Shown here: in pieces, positions 4,534 to 49,496 of the stretch | Position numbering within the stretch: position 1 is the first letter of the stretch | Layout: the number at the start of each line of letters is the position of its first letter | DNA from: Bacteroidia bacterium | Lineage (GTDB): Bacteria > Bacteroidota > Bacteroidia > Flavobacteriales > Schleiferiaceae | Direction of reading: 5' to 3' | Length of the DNA: 64,000 bases | Assembly: GCA_030424545.1 (NCBI GenBank) | Contig: JAUHWL010000006.1 | Coordinates: forward strand, 62,001-126,000 | The notes under the pieces: model-generated | What the model was told of the DNA's origin: nothing | The model's input: only the letters and a program-made list of their open reading frames with translations | Database searches by the model: none | Translations under genes and position numbers: made by a program

Positions 4534-5556
4534 TTAAATCTTAATCTCAGCCAACACATTACAAACCGTTTCAATTTGCGACATAGAAACATCCATGTGC
4601 GTAACCATGCGCAAACGGCCTTGCCCCATGCCAATTATTCTAATATTCTTTTCAGCCAATTGGGCTGTAAATTTTTCGGCATGAGCGGGGTATTTAAGCA
4701 TAAAAATCACCAAGTTGGTTTGTACGGGTTGCACAAAGCTTATGTAATCTAGTTGCAATAAGGCTTGCTCTAGCATTTTGGCTTTTGCATGATCATCAGC
4801 CAACCTATTTATATTATTGTCTAAGGCATAAATTCCTGCTGCGGCCATAAATCCAGCTTGGCGCCAAGCACCGCCAAAACGTTTGCGAATAAATTTTGCC
4901 TCTGCAATAAAATCTTTGTTTCCTAATAAAAGACTCCCAATAGGGCAGCCCAATCCTTTGCTTAAGCAAATAGAAATAGAATCAAAGGTTTGCCCATAAT
5001 CTGCGGCATTCTCGTTTTGGGCAATTAACGCGTTAAAAAGCCGAGCACCGTCTAAATGGTAACCAAGATTGTGTTTTTTAACTACAGTTTTAATTTGGTT
5101 TAATTCAGCAATTGTATAGCACGTTCCGCCTCCTTTGTTGCTGGTGTTTTCTACTTCAACTAGCTTGGTACGCGCGGCATGTATATCTCCGGGTTTGCTT
5201 ATTACTTCTTCTACTTGTTGTGCGGTAAAAATACCATCAGGATTGCCAATTAGTTTTGGCGAAACGGCAGAGTTAAACATCATGCCACCACCTTCGTAAT
5301 TGTAAATGTGTGCGTAATGGTGGCAAATCACTTCGTCTCCGGGTTGTGTATGCACTTTTATGGCAATCTGGTTTGTCATTGTGCCACTTGGGCAATACAG
5401 CGCAGCCTCCATACCAAATAGTTTTGCGGCTTTTTCTTGCAAAGCATTTACCGTAGGATCTTCATCAAAAACGTCATCGCCAACTTGGGCATTGGCCATG
5501 GCGTGCAACATTTGGGGTGTTGGTTTTGTTACGGTATCGCTAAGTAAATCTATCAT
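4534..5556 (-). CDS. ltaE: Low-specificity L-threonine aldolase
   Basis: This 340-residue PLP enzyme of fold type I cleaves L-threonine and L-allo-threonine to glycine and acetaldehyde. Visible family features are [13 protein letters not shown] at the N-terminus, [19 protein letters not shown], the [11 protein letters not shown] segment whose Asp contacts the cofactor ring nitrogen, and [18 protein letters not shown] with the PLP lysine. The [12 protein letters not shown] segment is also typical. The length is normal. It is followed, 9 bp apart, by no gene on its own strand downstream, but the membrane methyltransferase gene lies 9 bp upstream, so the two probably form an operon. Confidence 0.93.
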
Positions 5557-10300: not shown

Positions 10301-10626
10301 TAAAAGTTACAGAAGAAATAAATATCATTTACTATGAAGATTTTGATGAAATATTTCCCAATGTGTTTACACCCAATGAAGATGGTTTGAATGATACTTG
10401 GCAAATAGTGAAAAATATACAGCCTGAGCAATTCTCTGAATTTAATTTAGAAGTGTTTAATAGATGGGGGGGGAGTGTTTTAAAGACACAGAATGCTGCA
10501 TTTTCTTGGAATGGAAATTTTGAAAATAAGAAACTAGCCGATGGGGTATATTTCTGGCTGGTGAGCTACAAAGATGTTTGTGGTAACTATAACGAAGTGC
10601 ACGGTGAAGTACATCTTATGCGCTAG
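7393..10626 (+). CDS. Giant secreted SBBP/PKD-repeat protein with type B T9SS sorting domain
   Basis: The 1,077-residue product starts with a signal peptide (MRLAFQIALILFSLCVLQSADAQ). Residues about 24-235 form the N-terminal domain typical of these proteins (FIKNKGQWHDDALYKLELKN). Next come beta-propeller-type SBBP repeats (ISKFSADGTQLIYSTYLGG, VITKFNASGDSLLASTFLGG). Three PKD domains follow (LWDFDDGTFF, IWNFGDGTTS, NWAFGDGSGS). The C-terminus is a type B, gliding-motility-associated sorting domain (FPNVFTPNEDGLNDTW to the end), which directs export through the type IX system to the cell surface. It is probably adhesive; the ligand is unknown. TAACTTGG, one mismatch from the -7 box, lies at 7381. 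Confidence 0.9.
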   Translation: MRLAFQIALILFSLCVLQSADAQSFIKNKGQWHDDALYKLELKNNTIYVKQNGLRFHLQDPLALQHLHPETGKHSTFPDSILNHVFDVEFNSAAAEVIPLKKDIAYRNYYLGKDKSKWQANVSMYQEVRYKELYPGIDLLLKSGPANLKYDLILAPRANPDNIRWNYNHIDSIYLDQNRLIINTAVGRLVEEAPIAWQIIKGKVVPVEVAFVLNGNIVQIQLGDYKKNKELIIDPNFVFSTYTGSTADNFGFTATYDNNGNSYGGGIVFGNGYPLTTGAFQSNFGGAPIDISISKFSADGTQLIYSTYLGGNDADQPHSMVVDSLGNLILIGITSSLNYPVTPTAFDTTFNGGPTNTIIGQMFYANGVDMVITKFNASGDSLLASTFLGGSNTDGANKGIPFNYGDVARSEVIVADDGDIFFISSSRSTDFPVTVSNAFQDTMAGDQDAIFGALSSDLASLKWSTYMGGSGNDAGYSLKLNTAQSKVFVAGGTKSQNFPIDPNSYQPTFGGINDGWIASFNRSDGAYITSTFNGTTHYDQNFFVALDAEDAVYVFGQTKGLYPTTPGVWQVPNSAQFIHKFSENLKTSLKSTVFGNGSINNINISPTALMVDACKSIYISGWGGATNTEGTTTGMPTTQNAYDTITDGSDFYFLVLDGSWKFIEYATFFGGNNAAEHVDGGTSRFSPEGIIHQAVCAGCGGKSSFPAFPSNVWSTTNNSQNCNLACFKVEFQLQKARVNVVFEPDSSCAPHLLKFKDYSTNVDVMLWDFDDGTFFTGRNPVKVFNTAGFYNVKIIGIDTLCNTSDTALVPLYIFSSNTKSSFIANYDSCDVSYKVSFTNTSPPVTSFIWNFGDGTTSMQLNPVKIYNKPGPHLVYLAIQDSLCGSWDTAYTTIEFKVGGGDLTFSSEYEPCINWQEVVFTPRGSGTYHSFNWAFGDGSGSNQRFPTHQYVKPGTYLITMNAFDTICGHSIKVTEEINIIYYEDFDEIFPNVFTPNEDGLNDTWQIVKNIQPEQFSEFNLEVFNRWGGSVLKTQNAAFSWNGNFENKKLADGVYFWLVSYKDVCGNYNEVHGEVHLMR

Positions 10627-17654: not shown

Positions 17655-18536
17655 TTAGGGGGCAATAATTTTTAAAGAGGCGGGTATAACTTTAACGTTT
17701 ATTTTTTTTGCCATTTTAATAGGCTCACCATCAATATGAATTTTTTTCTTTTTGTTGATGAGCGTGATTTTTTTGCCAATAAACTCTTTGGTAAACTTAA
17801 ACTTGGGCAATTGTTTGGTAAGTAAAAAATAGGCAAATACAGGCGTATAAATAAGGGGGAATTTTTGCACAAAAATTAAACGTACGTAACCATCATTAAT
17901 CACCGAGTTTGGCGAAATTATAAAATTGTTGCCGTATTGATTGGCATTGGCAAATGTGGCTAAAACGGCATTGTTAAATTGGTCTTCTTTTTTATCTACA
18001 ATGATTTTATAGTCTTTGGGTTTGTAGTTAAGCACGCTTTGCAATGTAATTTTTACATAACTCCAAAATCCTCGTTTTTGGGCACGTGCAAACTTCCAAC
18101 TTACATAAGCATCTAGCCCAAAACCTGCTGTACAAAAGAAATAATCATCATTTATTTTAATAGAGTCTATGGTTTTAAAATTGCCCCTATTAATTAATTC
18201 TACGGCTTTTTTAGTGTTAAGAGGAATTTTTAAGTGGCGTGCTAATCCGTTGCCAGAACCAGTTGGTATAATGGCCAATGTTGTCTCTGTTTCTATAAGG
18301 TTTTTAGCAATTTCATTTACAGAGCCATCGCCACCTATGGCTACAATAATTTGGTATTTATGGACATTATGAGCGCTTATCTCAGAGCCATGCTTGGCTC
18401 TTTCTGTGTAAATAAAGTCGGCATTAAATTGTGTAGCATCTAAATTTTCATCAATAATTTCTCTAATACTTTTTTTTATCCCTCTGCCTGCAAAGGGGTT
18501 AATGATAAATAATATGTTTTTTTTAGTGCTGATGAT
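17655..18536 (-). CDS. Diacylglycerol kinase family lipid kinase with no standard start codon
   Basis: The frame from the sulfatase stop codon to 17655 encodes a full-length DGK-family protein of about 293 residues. N-terminally it reads ILFIINPFAGRG, then the nucleotide-binding motif VAIGGDGSVNE, then IPTGSGNGLARHLKIP. Later family segments are ICTAGFGLDAYVSWKF-like (residues DYFFCTAGFGLDAY) and the C-terminal HIDGEPIKMAKKINVKVIP. It would phosphorylate diacylglycerol or a related lipid. Between the TAA at 18540-18542 and the TTG at 18276 there is no ATG, GTG or TTG in frame, yet the conserved N-terminus lies there. I placed the start at an ATC (18534-18536); another ATC, an ATA or an ATT nearby is equally possible. 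Confidence 0.8.
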   Translation of the reverse strand: MISTKKNILFIINPFAGRGIKKSIREIIDENLDATQFNADFIYTERAKHGSEISAHNVHKYQIIVAIGGDGSVNEIAKNLIETETTLAIIPTGSGNGLARHLKIPLNTKKAVELINRGNFKTIDSIKINDDYFFCTAGFGLDAYVSWKFARAQKRGFWSYVKITLQSVLNYKPKDYKIIVDKKEDQFNNAVLATFANANQYGNNFIISPNSVINDGYVRLIFVQKFPLIYTPVFAYFLLTKQLPKFKFTKEFIGKKITLINKKKKIHIDGEPIKMAKKINVKVIPASLKIIAP

Positions 18537-18539
18537 GTT

Positions 18540-42592: not shown

Positions 42593-43141
42593 ATGAAGGT
42601 AATAGAAACTGGCTTTGACGGCCTTTTAGAATTGGTGCCACGCGTGTTTGAAGATGAACGCGGATACTTTTACGAAAGTTATAATAAAGCGGTATTTAGC
42701 GAGATTGGCATTGAAGCCAATTATGTGCAAGACAATCAAAGTCTATCTCAGAAAAATGTGGTTCGAGGCCTTCACTTTCAAGCCCCGCCTTTTGCACAAG
42801 GTAAATTGGTGCGGGTTATTAACGGTTCTGTTTTAGATATTGCGTTAGATATAAGAGTAGGTTCTCCTACTTATGGCGAATATCATAAAGTGCTATTAAC
42901 CGCAGAAAACAAAAAACTTTTTTGGGTACCGGCTGGTTTTGCGCACGGTTTTGCAACCTTAGAAAACAACACCGTTTTTGCCTACAAATGTACAGATGTG
43001 TACAACCAAGAAAGCGAAGGCGCTGTGCTTTGGAATGACCCTGAACTAAACATTGATTGGGAAGTTAAAAATCCCGTAATTTCTTCGAAAGACAAGAATG
43101 GTACCGCTTGGAAAGATTTTAGATCTCCGTTTGTGTTTTAA
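42593..43141 (+). CDS. rfbC: dTDP-4-dehydrorhamnose 3,5-epimerase
   Basis: This 182-residue cupin-type enzyme of dTDP-L-rhamnose synthesis double-epimerises dTDP-4-keto-6-deoxyglucose. Motifs are FEDERGYFYESYN at the N-terminus, NQSLSQKNVVRGLHFQ with the catalytic His, VLDIALDIR, VPAGFAHGFATLE, and YKCTDVYNQESEGAVLWND with the catalytic Tyr. The length is typical. rfbA, rfbB and rfbD are not next to it, so the pathway genes are scattered. It has its own promoter box. Confidence 0.94.
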   Translation: MKVIETGFDGLLELVPRVFEDERGYFYESYNKAVFSEIGIEANYVQDNQSLSQKNVVRGLHFQAPPFAQGKLVRVINGSVLDIALDIRVGSPTYGEYHKVLLTAENKKLFWVPAGFAHGFATLENNTVFAYKCTDVYNQESEGAVLWNDPELNIDWEVKNPVISSKDKNGTAWKDFRSPFVF

Positions 43142-43271
43142 TTCTAAACAAGATACTAGTTTTTCATTTTACATTGAGAATTTTACCTTTTAATTTTTTT
43201 CTTTTTTTAACCCAGTTTGTTTTTTATGTAAGACCCTAACCTTGGGCTGTTGTATTAAGAAAAACAAAGTT

Positions 43272-44804
43272 TTACAAAATACTTACTGTACCGCGTACCT
43301 GCCGTTTGCTGCCTTCGGGGTTTTGTTGGGTGGCTTGTGGGTTGATGTATAAATACTCTATTAAATAGGTGTAAACGCCTGTGGGCAAATACGCACCTTT
43401 AAACGTGCCGTCCCAATTGTTTTGGTAATTGTTGCTGTAAAAAACTTGCTGCCCCCAACGATCAAAAATGTAAAGTGTTACGGGTTCTGGTGCCCCTTTA
43501 AATTCAAAGTAATCGTTTATACCATCTCCGTCTGGGGTAAAGGCGTTGGGTATCCAGAGGTAGCTTTCGCAAAAATCTTGTACCGCCCAAGTGCTGTCTG
43601 CCAAATTGTAACAGGGTGTTTGCGCTTCTAACCAATACAGGCCAGGATAAATTGTTTGTATGCCCGTCATGGTTTCGCCTGTATTCCATAAATAGGCGGT
43701 TAGCTGCATGGGGTCTGGGTTGGCTTGTAATGTGGCTTTTTGCCCCTCGCAAAAGGTAACGGTGTCTGGTAAATTAAGCGCGTAGTTGGCGGGGAAATAT
43801 TCCACCACAATGGTGTCTCTGGCTACAAAGCGGCTGTTTATAGTGGTTTGTACCCAATACGTGCCGGGTTGTGTTATCACAATGCTGCTGTCTGTGCTGC
43901 CGGTGCTCCACATGTAGGTGGTGGTTGTGTCTTCTAGCATAAAACCCTGCAACTCTGGTTGCAAAACCAATTGCTGACCTGGGCATAGCAGAGTGTCTTT
44001 GGGCAGGGTGGCGGTGTAGAGGGTATCGCTGCATTTGCAAAGCAGAGGGGCATCTATTAAGTACGTGGTAATATTGTGTATAAACCAAGGGTCTGTGGAG
44101 AATCCACTCGCTACAATGGTTGTTGCTGCATCACTTCTAAAATTGCCAAAATTGATAAAATTTTCGCTACCTATTGCGCTAAAACTACCCTTTACGCGCA
44201 CCCATTTGGTGGTGTCTGTTAGTACCTGTGCGGCTTCTATTTGTGGTGTTAAGTTTTGGGCATAGCTATAGTAATCAAAGGGACTTGAAGTAAAGTAGAT
44301 ACCAATATTTTTAGTTAAGCCTATAGACCATTAAAAGGGGCGGGTATAGAACTCAGCACAATAGATTATATCAGCCTCTAAAGGTTTTTGCAATTGTTGG
44401 GAGATAAACCCTCGTTTGGTAAAACCTGTTTTTAAAGTTACTTGACCATATCCTATACCATTTACAGGACATGGGAAAGGATAATTGCAGGGTTTTGCGC
44501 TATTTGGGTCTATATTCCATTTTGCTTGACAATCATGTATCGCCCAGCCATTATTCATGTAATTAGCTGGTATATTTATAGTGTCACTAGGTGAATACCA
44601 TTCAGCGACAAATTGTGATTGACCAGTGTCAAATCCAACCCTCCAAGTTGGGCATCCTAACGGACCTCTACTATCTAAATTTGTTAAGGTATTATTCAAA
44701 AGTATATTCTGCCCTATTAAAACACTTGGGCAGAATATACTGAATAGAAGTAAGTGTCTAAACTTAGTTACAAACAAAACGAGCGATATAAACGGAAGTG
44801 CCAT
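43272..44804 (-). pseudogene. T9SS type B cargo gene interrupted by one in-frame TAA
   Basis: Two reading frames on the minus strand, 44804-44331 and from 44330 to 43272, are the same frame separated only by the TAA at 44331-44333. Translating through it gives YTRPF-stop-WSIGLTKNIGIYF and a continuous family protein. It has a signal peptide (RHLLLFSIFCPSVLIGQ), an N-terminal domain (GWAIHDCQAKWNIDPNSAKP; ISQQLQKPLEADIIYCAEFY), Ig-like parts and a type B sorting domain (IPNAFTPDGDGINDYFEFKG). The start codon may be ATG at 44804 or TTG at 44777; both overlap the end of the upstream T9SS gene. As it stands a 157-residue fragment is made, without the export signal at the C-terminus. Confidence 0.8.
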
Positions 44805-47800
44805 TAATAGCTTTTAAAACATAAATTCCTGGTGATAATGTTTCTACGTTTATTGTGCCTGTGATTTCTTTATTTAGAAATTTCAGATGTGTTTTACCAT
44901 CTATACCAATAATAGAAATATTGTATCTAAAGTAGTTTTGTAGTAAAGTGCTTTGGGGGATGGAATAATTTAAAATACCGTCTGTAGGATTTGGATAAGT
45001 TACCAATGCAGTAGTTGGCAGGTTTGCTGTTGTTTTACTTGATGGAACAGCAATAGAACAGTTGTTGGGATAAAGGTTAGGAGTAGAGGCCACATACGGG
45101 CTATTCGGTGAGTCTGGATATTTTGTGTTGTTAGTGCCAACTACTCCTGTGAAATAATAGTTAATATAATCTCCAGGCCCTTGATTCACTCGATCATCTT
45201 TTACTCTATCAGCAGATGATATTGGTAATCCGAGAATTTGCAACCATTCATTATCGGCTGCCAATTTTTTTCCGCTAGTATTTTGGCCAATGGAGCTTAT
45301 GGTAGTTCCAATGCCAATATATATGCCAAAGTAGTAATTCTTGAACTTATTGCTCTGAAATTGAATAGGGAAGATAGGAGAACCATTTTGGTCGTAGTCC
45401 AGCCAAGAATCTCTGGTAACATCACCAGAAAATGCCAATGCTCTTCCAGCGTATAAAATTTCGTTACACCCAACAAACGCATTGCGGCTTTCTGTTAATT
45501 GTATGCCAACGCTTAGGTAATTGGTAGTTGAATCAGGTAATGTTATACCTAGACCATAGTTGTGTGTAATTTCATTCTCCCCAATGCTAATTCCTTCGCA
45601 ATTGTACACGTGTATGCCTGTAGATATACTAGTATTACCCGTAGAGTTATTAGATTTTGTGGGGTAAAGAAAATTGTTATTTATATAAACTTTTTGGTTT
45701 GAAGAAGTTTGCCAATCTGATTTGAGGTTGCTAACCTGAACACAGGTTTGGGCAGTGATATCGTTTTCTTGAACTTTAGTGCGACTACTAGAAAGTGTGG
45801 TGGAAAATATTTTAACACCGTATAAATCTAAAGTTGCAGAAATTTGATTCTTGTATATGTATGTTTCTATAGGATCTACAATATTAATATTGGCGTGGTT
45901 TAAAAAGTAATTAGAAAATGGCGTAGCGTTAAGGTCTCCAATGGTTATTTTACTATTTATAGCTTCTATACCTGAGGGGCTAATGCCGCTAGATGGTATG
46001 CTTTTGTAAAACTGGTTGTCAAAAATGCGGTATTCTCCATTTTCGCAAAGTATATTCAAGCCTTCTTCAAAATCTATTTCTGCAACTGTTCCCGTACTAT
46101 TGTCGGCCCAAAAATGATGGCTTTCGTCTCCTGTGGGGTCGCTACTCCAAAAAGAGTTGGGTTTATCTAAGCTAAAATCTTGTACGTTAATCATTTTAAT
46201 TCCTACAGATTTATTAACATTATTGGCCACCAAAGCTAACCAGTTTATTCCAGAATTTGGGTGAGGTGTTGTGCCAAAAGATGGGCCGGAATGCTCAAAC
46301 CTATTGCCCTCCCAAGTTAAAACACCATTTGCATTGCTATAGTTTTCTATTAGCTGACTAATTACATTTTGGCGAAAAAGATTATCAGTGAAGTTTGCAG
46401 TGGCATCATCAATTAAATGCACGCCTCTTATCGCATCTTGTAACGTACAATCTTCCATAAATAGAGTAGAAGAAGCGTGTGGATTATAGATCCTATCCCA
46501 TTTGTAAGCGTTGCATGCTTGAAAGGTAGACCTTGTAAAAGCCACTTGTACATTCGCATCTATTTCTAACTCGGCATCAGGTAGTAAATAAAATTTACAA
46601 TTGTCAAACGTAAAGTTATCGTTAATGATTACTGTTCCTGCAACTGTAATTGTTTTGCCAACTATGTTTAGGGTGTTAGGAATTGTTGAAGTTACATTGG
46701 TGTTAGGTGGAAAAAAATAGTCGCTTTTTAAACTGTTGTCACAGCAACTATAAAGTTTTGTGTTTAAATTAAAGGGGCACATTGTTCCTTGAAAAGATAT
46801 TGAGCCGCTTATGGTGATATCTGCATATCCCGTGTTGGAAGTTACTTCTGGGTTATAGATTATTAAATTACCATTGCTACTTAAATTGTAGCTGGAGTAA
46901 TTAGCCCCGCTAATAGAAACGTTAAAACTACCCGTGGCATCACCCAAATAAAACTCTGCGGTTGCATCGCAATCATTATTTACAATAGATGTAATGTAAG
47001 GTTGAGGCGCTAAATAAATGGTTTGTTCATCTGTATAGCTTAATCCATTAAAATATACCGTCATTTTATAGGTATGTGTTCCAGGCGTATTTATGGCAAT
47101 ACTGAAATTCTCATTCGTGCTTACAACCATTCCGCTTTGCACATGCTCCCATGATATTTGGGCACCTGTTGTTGCTGGGCTGCAAGTGGTAGACGAACCA
47201 ATAATCACGGTTTGTGGCGTACACAGGACTAAGTCTTCGCCTGCATAGGGTAGGGCAAAAACTTGAATGTCATCAATTCTCTGGCTTGGTATAAAGTGAT
47301 GTGTATTCATGCCTTGGGGTGGTATTGCTGAAGAGAAATTTAATGTTGTGGCATTATCTAAAAAGTTGCCAATTACAATATGTTCTGAGGGGGCACTATT
47401 TGTATATTGAAAAATAGCAGCAGATTGTTGCCACCCGTTTTGATTTACATCAATTTGAGAACTAAAATCTACTTGCGGTGTGCCCCAAGTAGTTATTGGT
47501 TGGCTGTTTGAAATAGGATTGTTGCTCATGTCTGCCGTTGTTGGAAATAGAACTTGTATAGCACTGGAGCGCATAAACCTATTAAAAGATAAGTTAGACC
47601 ACAAGGAAACATAATAAAAACGCCCTTCAATCATGGTGTTGTTTATTTGCTGCATGATGTATTCTCTTCTGTTAAATCCAGCACGGGCATCCATACTAAA
47701 TAGATGTAATACCCCGCTGCCGCTTTGGGTATTGGTGTTGCAAGAATTGCCTATTGGGCCCGTACAGTTTAAACCATAACTAGAATGAGCATTTGCTAAA

Positions 47801-48543
47801 AGATAATCAGGTGTGTTATTAGCGGCAGGGTTTCCCGAAAAAGATTGAGGTACGTCCCAACCGCAGGCATGGCTTGGTGGGGCATAAGTTAATGGCAATT
47901 GGGCAACACCTCCTATTGGGTTATTTGAATTGAATTGAGATTCTGCTTGTTCAAAACTACCATTTTGAATAAAATCACAAACAGGGGTGTTACAAGTCCC
48001 GCTGGACTGAAAATCTTCTTTGGGAAACGCATGTAAAATAAAACCACTGCCAACAGAACCTTCCATTTTTAAATAATAGGTTAACCCAATTTGTAAACTA
48101 TCAAAATTAAAAAGTATCAAATTGTCTTCTGTACTTTGTATAGGACCTGTGCTTACAGTGTTAAACCCACCACAATTGCCTTCAAGTAAAGTCCAAGTAT
48201 GTGGCCAAGTTCCACCTTGGTCTATGTTCACGCCAACGCTCAATACATCATTATGTAAATTAATAAACGCGTAGGCCGCTCCGTTCGTTTCAATAAAATC
48301 AAATGCTTGTTGGTGTACCATTCCCGTTGCATTGCTACAGTTTTGTGCTTTCAAATTCTGTAAACTGATAAATACCCCGAGGAAGATAAGTAGTTTGATT
48401 ATTACATGGGGGGGGGGGTAAGTTGCTGTTTGTGAGTAATTAATGGTTGCATAGCTTGGGTTTTTTAGTTTTGAATGCTCTAAGATAGTAAGATTTATAA
48501 TTAAAAAATAGCCTTTCTTTTCTCCAACTATAATTTTTTGCAT
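44764..48543 (-). CDS. Large surface protein with beta-helix region and type A T9SS sorting domain
   Basis: The frame is 1,259 codons from ATG at 48543. The real secretion signal begins only near 48400 (IIKLLIFLGVFISLQNLKAQ) and is preceded by an odd leader with PPPH encoded by a run of 11 C. A second ATG at 48452 is in another frame unless one C is added. The mature protein has an N-terminal beta-rich domain, PKD/Ig-like parts (TGAQISWEHVQSGMVV) and a right-handed beta-helix-like region (ITAQTCVQVSNLKSDWQTSS; GIHVYNCEGISIGENEITHN). The C-terminus is a type A sorting domain (YPNPTDGILNYS) that ends, unusually, in FVCN. Probably a surface adhesin. Confidence 0.82.
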   Translation of the reverse strand: MQKIIVGEKKGYFLIINLTILEHSKLKNPSYATINYSQTATYPPPHVIIKLLIFLGVFISLQNLKAQNCSNATGMVHQQAFDFIETNGAAYAFINLHNDVLSVGVNIDQGGTWPHTWTLLEGNCGGFNTVSTGPIQSTEDNLILFNFDSLQIGLTYYLKMEGSVGSGFILHAFPKEDFQSSGTCNTPVCDFIQNGSFEQAESQFNSNNPIGGVAQLPLTYAPPSHACGWDVPQSFSGNPAANNTPDYLLANAHSSYGLNCTGPIGNSCNTNTQSGSGVLHLFSMDARAGFNRREYIMQQINNTMIEGRFYYVSLWSNLSFNRFMRSSAIQVLFPTTADMSNNPISNSQPITTWGTPQVDFSSQIDVNQNGWQQSAAIFQYTNSAPSEHIVIGNFLDNATTLNFSSAIPPQGMNTHHFIPSQRIDDIQVFALPYAGEDLVLCTPQTVIIGSSTTCSPATTGAQISWEHVQSGMVVSTNENFSIAINTPGTHTYKMTVYFNGLSYTDEQTIYLAPQPYITSIVNNDCDATAEFYLGDATGSFNVSISGANYSSYNLSSNGNLIIYNPEVTSNTGYADITISGSISFQGTMCPFNLNTKLYSCCDNSLKSDYFFPPNTNVTSTIPNTLNIVGKTITVAGTVIINDNFTFDNCKFYLLPDAELEIDANVQVAFTRSTFQACNAYKWDRIYNPHASSTLFMEDCTLQDAIRGVHLIDDATANFTDNLFRQNVISQLIENYSNANGVLTWEGNRFEHSGPSFGTTPHPNSGINWLALVANNVNKSVGIKMINVQDFSLDKPNSFWSSDPTGDESHHFWADNSTGTVAEIDFEEGLNILCENGEYRIFDNQFYKSIPSSGISPSGIEAINSKITIGDLNATPFSNYFLNHANINIVDPIETYIYKNQISATLDLYGVKIFSTTLSSSRTKVQENDITAQTCVQVSNLKSDWQTSSNQKVYINNNFLYPTKSNNSTGNTSISTGIHVYNCEGISIGENEITHNYGLGITLPDSTTNYLSVGIQLTESRNAFVGCNEILYAGRALAFSGDVTRDSWLDYDQNGSPIFPIQFQSNKFKNYYFGIYIGIGTTISSIGQNTSGKKLAADNEWLQILGLPISSADRVKDDRVNQGPGDYINYYFTGVVGTNNTKYPDSPNSPYVASTPNLYPNNCSIAVPSSKTTANLPTTALVTYPNPTDGILNYSIPQSTLLQNYFRYNISIIGIDGKTHLKFLNKEITGTINVETLSPGIYVLKAINGTSVYIARFVCN
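48408..48418 (-). repeat. Homopolymer run of 11 C (G on the plus strand) near a signal peptide
   Basis: Eleven consecutive G on the given strand are eleven C in the coding direction, immediately before the signal peptide of the beta-helix surface protein. The count agrees with the translated frame (Y-P-P-P-H). Runs of this kind slip during replication. Confidence 0.9.
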
Positions 48544-48569
48544 TTACATTTTTCAGTCTGTTCAAATCT

Positions 48570-48577
48570 TACTTTTG
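48570..48577 (+). promoter_or_regulatory. -7 promoter box TACTTTTG of the transglycosylase gene
   Basis: An exact TAnnTTTG match lies 4 bp before the ATG at 48582. No TTG at the -33 spacing. The short leader resembles mtaB and rfbC. Confidence 0.55.
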
Positions 48578-48581
48578 TGGC

Positions 48582-49496
48582 ATGAATAAATGGATTTACT
48601 CTTTAGGGATTTTGGCGCTTGTTGGAACAACCTCTTTGCTGTTTACACAAGGCACCAGAGATGTTACAGAAGATAAACAGTACGCTCAACTTTTTCAAGA
48701 TTCTTATTCTATATATGCAGTGCCAATTCCCGCTTCTATATCTTTTGCAGGCGAAGCTCCACCACTTTCAGATCAAGATGTTTATGAGCGCCTAGATAGA
48801 GAAATGCATGTAAATACATATTGGCAAAGCAATAGCATATTGATGTTTAAACGAGCAAATCGGTATTTCCCTGTTATTGAACCCATTTTAAAAGCGAATG
48901 GAGTACCGGACGATTTTAAATATTTGGCGTTGATAGAAAGTGGTTTGCAAAACATTGTATCTCCTGCTGGGGCAACTGGTTTTTGGCAAATCATGAAAGG
49001 TACCGGGCAAGAGTATGGCCTTGAGATAACCAACGAAGTTGATGAACGCTATCATTTGGAAAAATCTACCGAAGCAGCTTGTAAATATCTAAATGATGCT
49101 TATAATAAATTTGGTACTTGGACAATGGCTGCAGCCAGCTATAACATGGGCATGGGTGGATTAAACAAGGCTTTAGAGAGACAAGATGCCGATAATTATT
49201 ACGATTTGCTTTTAAATTCTGAAACGCAGCGATATGTGTTTAGGTTACTTGCAATAAAAGCCATTATGGAAAACCCAAAAGCCTACGGTTTTCATTTTAG
49301 AGATAAAGATTTGTATGCACCAGACCAAGTTAAACTAGTTTCCATAGATACTACAATTTCTGAGTTTACCGTTTTTGCTAAAAACTACGGTATGAGTTAC
49401 AAAACGCTTAAATATTACAATCCTTGGTTGCGCCAGAGTTATTTAAATAATTCGAAAAACCATTCGTACCAAATTGCAATTCCCGTAACGGAATAA
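48582..49496 (+). CDS. Lytic transglycosylase (MltD/Slt type) protein
   Basis: The 304-residue product has a signal or anchor segment (IYSLGILALVGTTSLLFTQG), then an SLT catalytic domain: DDFKYLALIESGLQNIVSPA with the catalytic Glu, GATGFWQIMKGTGQEYGL, and MAAASYNMGMGGLNKALE. The last about 60 residues (ISEFTVFAKNYGMSYKTLKY) look like a degenerate LysM. It cleaves peptidoglycan glycan strands to anhydro-muropeptides in the periplasm. The gene is divergent from the beta-helix surface protein, and convergent with the nucleoside phosphorylase with a 6-bp gap. Confidence 0.9.
   Translation: MNKWIYSLGILALVGTTSLLFTQGTRDVTEDKQYAQLFQDSYSIYAVPIPASISFAGEAPPLSDQDVYERLDREMHVNTYWQSNSILMFKRANRYFPVIEPILKANGVPDDFKYLALIESGLQNIVSPAGATGFWQIMKGTGQEYGLEITNEVDERYHLEKSTEAACKYLNDAYNKFGTWTMAAASYNMGMGGLNKALERQDADNYYDLLLNSETQRYVFRLLAIKAIMENPKAYGFHFRDKDLYAPDQVKLVSIDTTISEFTVFAKNYGMSYKTLKYYNPWLRQSYLNNSKNHSYQIAIPVTE

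Follow-up and report, generated by a model that had tools for sequence, protein, structure and literature searches.

A type B sorted surface-protein gene in a two-gene cassette of a Bacteroidia bacterium is interrupted by one in-frame stop codon, probably through a recent nonsense mutation

In the window, a 64,000-nt stretch of a Bacteroidia bacterium genome (G000:C2:62001-126000; 3.375 Mb in 32 contigs), a gene for a cargo protein of the type IX secretion system (T9SS) is interrupted by a single in-frame TAA (Table 1). It lies on the minus strand, which the first-pass annotation had left unstated, and its ORF opens at ATG 44804. Our translation of 43272-44804 reproduces exactly the stop (44333-44331), the coordinates and the peptide across it (...YTRPF, stop, WSIGLTKN...) that had been described. 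The downstream half was also said to keep a complete sorting domain, and this is borne out by matches to CHU_C (Pfam; E 5.5e-21, 74.9 bits against a cut-off of 27, profile positions 3-73 of 86) and to the T9SS type B family TIGR04131 (NCBIfam; E 2.8e-14, 53 bits against 35). By its C-terminal domain, above both curated cut-offs, the protein thus resembles T9SS type B cargo; it differs from such cargo in that the stop cuts the sorting domain off from the N-terminal half, so that signal peptide (judged by eye and from helix 3-31 of the predicted model) and sorting domain do not share one translated frame. For 43 codons 3' of the TAA there is no ATG, GTG or TTG, GTG 44201 being the first.

Table 1. 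Features of the interrupted gene and its partner (window positions; all on the minus strand).
Feature	Position	Strand	Basis
Whole interrupted gene	43272-44804	-	translation: 157 residues, one stop, 352 residues, final stop
Upstream part, 157 codons: signal-peptide-like start and first part of N-terminal beta-sandwich	44334..44804	-	translation, model
In-frame TAA stop codon	44331..44333	-	codons CCC TTT TAA TGG TCT
Downstream part, same frame, 352 codons: remaining beta-sandwich, Ig-like domains, sorting domain	43275..44330	-	translation, alignment, model
CHU_C / T9SS type B sorting domain, residues 260-330 of downstream part	43341..43553	-	Pfam, NCBIfam
Final stop codon TAA	43272..43274	-	translation
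First canonical start after the stop, GTG, 43 codons downstream	44199..44201	-	ORF list, start scan
C11 homopolymer (G11 on the plus strand), between ATG 48452 and the partner's signal-peptide core	48408..48418	-	sequence
Partner gene, type A sorted surface protein with Por_Secre_tail, longest ORF from ATG 48543	44764..48543	-	ORF list, Pfam, NCBIfam

No Pfam or NCBIfam match was obtained with the upstream half. An AlphaFold model of the gene (mean pLDDT 77.7, pTM 0.49) places the TAA between strands 147-156 and 162-172 of an N-terminal beta-sandwich, and with the stop inside this predicted domain neither half would be a whole domain there. Foldseek against the PDB returned nothing beyond generic Ig/beta-sandwich folds at low TM-scores, including some hits to the Aureispira protein GhpA, and we therefore read no function from them. 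The 5' third of the gene (window 43270-44810) is poorer in GC, at 0.33-0.38, than the middle, at 0.47-0.50; like the codon usage of the upstream half (below), this looks as if that part were of other origin.

Queried with the read-through protein, 95 of 99 genomes gave matches at E 0.001 or better, many via the C-terminal part only; TAG codons flagged in matches from G029 and G037 simply mark normal ORF ends. Outside the window, the best relative is a paralog in the same genome (L046, G000:C31:63424-64917), which is 63% identical, a single open frame and aligned over query residues from about 15 to 510. Since both halves match L046 within one ORF, a chance pair of ORFs is excluded and the two halves are, as judged from homology, a single gene. 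The first-pass annotation had proposed comparing the aligned codon among relatives and looking for relatives with two separate genes: none of the 18 aligned relatives is split, and each runs on across the site with an amino acid in the column of the stop (V in L046, and elsewhere D, K, A, V, T, R, P, W or N). These 18 were hand-picked to cover the stop, omitting L018, L022, L029 and two ORFs of L024 that extend into it as well, and the column belongs to a gap-rich loop with L046 as its sole firm counterpart. There the codon is GTG, two substitutions away from TAA.

How unusual the site is was judged from 464 kb of the genome (the window plus 20 stretches of 20 kb, about 14%). Same-frame ORF pairs in which a stop is preceded by at least 60 codons and followed by at least 100 number 55 there, and in 11 of them 20 codons or more pass before a canonical start recurs. 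Eight of the 11 are overlain by a longer ORF in a different frame; the other three are the interrupted gene, a PDDEXK_3 plus MoaE pair and a sulfatase plus diacylglycerol kinase pair, both of the latter being two genes. Hence, by a scan blind to split genes in which a start closely follows the stop, the interrupted gene is the only clear split gene in the 464 kb. A blind coding-score scan ranks the site only 28th of 140 same-frame ORF pairs, which we attribute to the upstream half with its atypical codon usage (as if of other origin); as the site is not singled out by coding score, the case rests on homology. None of the 32 CHU_C domain matches genome-wide contains a stop, a count that covers the domain only. 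The sulfatase plus diacylglycerol kinase pair explains why the window seems to hold another split gene (stop 18540). The kinase frame (17658-18539, minus strand), with DAGK_cat from its residue 9 and directly after the sulfatase gene, has no ATG, GTG or TTG for 87 codons, so either an unusual start codon is used or the start has been lost.

Compared with L046, dN/dS is 0.21 in the post-stop half and 0.17 in the pre-stop half, for which dS is saturated (3.58). Over the positions at which the gene, L046 and L047, another copy of the family, all align, private residue changes number 9 in the window gene, 27 in L046 and 28 in L047. The low dN/dS together with the fewest private changes indicates that the post-stop half was under constraint until recently, or still is. 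L047 (4673-5245, minus strand) is a 3' remnant of the same gene, 195 codons long with its 5' part missing, about 63 kb off on the same contig. It has a 79-nt exact stretch in common with the sorting domain of the window gene (about 43440-43520), with synonymous sites differing widely elsewhere, which suggests gene-conversion-like recombination between the copies. In L046 the nearest upstream ATG is out of frame with the mature part, and in L053 (G015, another genus) a TAA stands elsewhere, in the N-terminal part. Damage is common among close copies (L047, L046, L053). Before the mature part of L046 (G000:C31:60000-69000, about 4860-4960, minus strand) we find no in-frame canonical start; two T7 runs lie between it and the nearest ATG.

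The gene had been placed directly after a partner surface gene, and it is indeed the second member of a two-gene cassette. Among 17 family loci (16 fetched plus the window), nine have a gene ending in Por_Secre_tail (Pfam) directly upstream on the same strand, so that a type A sorted protein is followed by a type B one: the window, L048, L050 and L051 in the same genome, L054 to L057 in G030 and L060 in G002, i.e. eight cassettes besides the window in three genomes including its own. The upstream gene of L054 is in two frames, and such a gene is not found at L046, L047, L049, L053, L058, L059, L061 or L062, with contigs ending close upstream of L059 and L062. In the eight other cassettes the first possible start of the second gene lies between a 1-nt overlap with the upstream gene and 6 nt past its stop. 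Here the window cassette is the odd one out: with ATG 44804 as its sole canonical start, the gene shares 41 nt with the one upstream. The earlier statement that the gene carries no other lesion is therefore correct for the frame and needs amending for the start. By eye, partner paralogs in other cassettes look beta-helix-like. The contig ends of C9, C16 and C23 lie inside cassettes and stretches of L050 and L051 show 88% identity; the assembly was thus probably broken by repeats of the cassette family.

The partner's leader contains a homopolymer whose change in length would shift the signal-peptide frame. The C11 run lies 34 nt after ATG 48452; the frame from this ATG ends after 16 codons and the signal-peptide frame is open only from the farther ATG 48543, which, being in frame, could still express the partner gene. 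L051 has the same layout, with a G12 run (G000:C9:129340-129351; L051 841-852) at the same 34 nt from its ATG and likewise out of frame (51 codons). At the start of contig C16, which holds the leader only, a near copy of the L051 leader (96% over 105 nt) has G10 at G000:C16:41-50, again 34 nt after the ATG, and the frame from the leader ATG is broken in all three of these runs. Across the genome, G/C runs of 10 or more number five: besides these three, one lies shortly before another CHU_C gene (C18) and one is intergenic (C2:40588). In two other genera (G002:C41, G007:C27), a G11 run lies in the leader of a Por_Secre_tail gene and both are out of frame; the genes that follow have no Pfam match at E 0.01, and these are the only two such leaders among 15 poly-G places fetched from other genomes, our choice from those listed. 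That all four assessable leaders are out of frame is an outcome that chance would give about one time in five. The homopolymer probably switches the cassette on and off, and the earlier view of the upstream gene as phase-variable stands as a prediction; expression of both cassette members may thus be altered. The layout resembles homopolymer-slippage phase variation of surface genes, with the poly-G loci of C. jejuni as an example (PMC4965091), in that a run of 11-12 G/C lies between the ATG and the partner's signal-peptide core; it differs in that the run belongs to the partner gene rather than to the TAA, and in being predicted from a single assembly. Among the papers that searches of an open-licence library brought up, none deals with phase-variable T9SS cargo in its title or the opening of its abstract. 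Elsewhere in the window, a G8 run (10466-10473) lies close to where a frame of 1080 codons terminates, this one too with a CHU_C-like domain at its end.

How, then, is the stop to be explained? A slippage origin can be set aside as there is no tandem repeat at the site and the frame is kept, which fits a substitution. That this substitution is a base-call or consensus error, and that the gene is intact in the living strain, with a sense codon at this place, might be argued from the rest of the 352-codon frame being undamaged and constrained, and from M. smegmatis, where 28 of 73 resequenced interrupted genes proved to be errors (PMC1852416). Yet with the frame kept an error here must be a substitution, while the errors in that study are no miscalls; moreover, finding no other clear split gene in 464 kb makes the error rate look low, and the genome is 99.97% complete with 0.01% contamination, so we regard an error as unlikely. 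Even less credit is due to a pair of distinct genes with the start of the second at GTG 44201 or elsewhere after the stop. The GTG does exist, and the same stretch shows an increase in GC content from about 0.37 to 0.49, but the codons before GTG 44201 align with relatives, none of the 18 relatives is split here, the cut falls inside one predicted domain and the second product would have no signal peptide. This makes a pair of genes extremely improbable and we reject it.

Decoding of the TAA at some level, so that full-length protein is made and sorted, would be in keeping with the constraint on the post-stop half, and a prokaryote-wide survey (PMC7918605) describes in-frame stops as widespread in bacterial genes and argues for frequent readthrough. 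Against it, no stop-reading tRNA is found among 34 tRNA matches (all given an anticodon, 30 as their own loci and four inside other loci), a check that near-cognate misreading would escape. Of 182 closed ORFs in the 464 kb with 300 codons or more, 113 end in TAA (six more ORFs run off an end), a figure that also disposes of global recoding of TAA. Folding of the 101 nt that begin immediately ahead of the stop does not surpass that of shuffled sequences (z 0.37), 43100-48700 has no Rfam match and none of the 18 relatives has a stop at the same place, so that neither a stop conserved in relatives nor a tRNA or stimulatory structure, the marks of programmed readthrough, is seen. We hence consider readthrough very unlikely. 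Of the options originally offered, a recent nonsense change is the one best supported by the sense codons in relatives, the low dN/dS and the few private changes, while readthrough or a suppressor has gained no positive evidence.

Our preferred reading is that the gene has been inactivated recently by a real nonsense mutation, which we think probable given the homology across the stop, the split domain, the lack of a near start, the lack of a stop-reading tRNA and the damaged related copies. According to this reading, a type B cargo of about 510 residues with a beta-sandwich and Ig-like domains, encoded by the second gene of a type IX secretion cassette, would have suffered a nonsense substitution that ends translation after 157 residues, inside the first domain, with the sorted surface product being lost. 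Lacking a near start and a signal peptide, the downstream half is very probably not made or not exported, and from the lost sorting domain and the split domain we infer that no functional product remains, even if purifying selection on the post-stop half would also fit a protein that is still made. The event would add to the losses of a paralog family shaped by duplication, recombination and decay, and selection on the second gene would be weaker while the partner homopolymer, as a probable switch, keeps the cassette off. A broader scenario, tentative and in our view rather doubtful, is a cassette family in which the leader homopolymer toggles both genes and long off periods shelter the second ones, so that stops accumulate and a reservoir of broken, recombining surface proteins builds up.

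Set beside the interrupted coding sequences of PMC1852416 and PMC7918605, the gene is of a known kind: one in-frame stop in a gene that is otherwise intact and constrained, the difference from the latter survey being that our stop is known from one genome and is outside the reach of the conservation test applied there. The interrupted gene is thus ordinary overall, and the slippage-prone cassette is the more interesting part. For annotation, the locus should be marked as one interrupted gene rather than two proteins. As for the biology, cassettes with a slippage-prone leader in this genome, and tracts placed alike in leaders of type A sorted proteins of two other genera, point to a possible route for surface variation in these bacteria.
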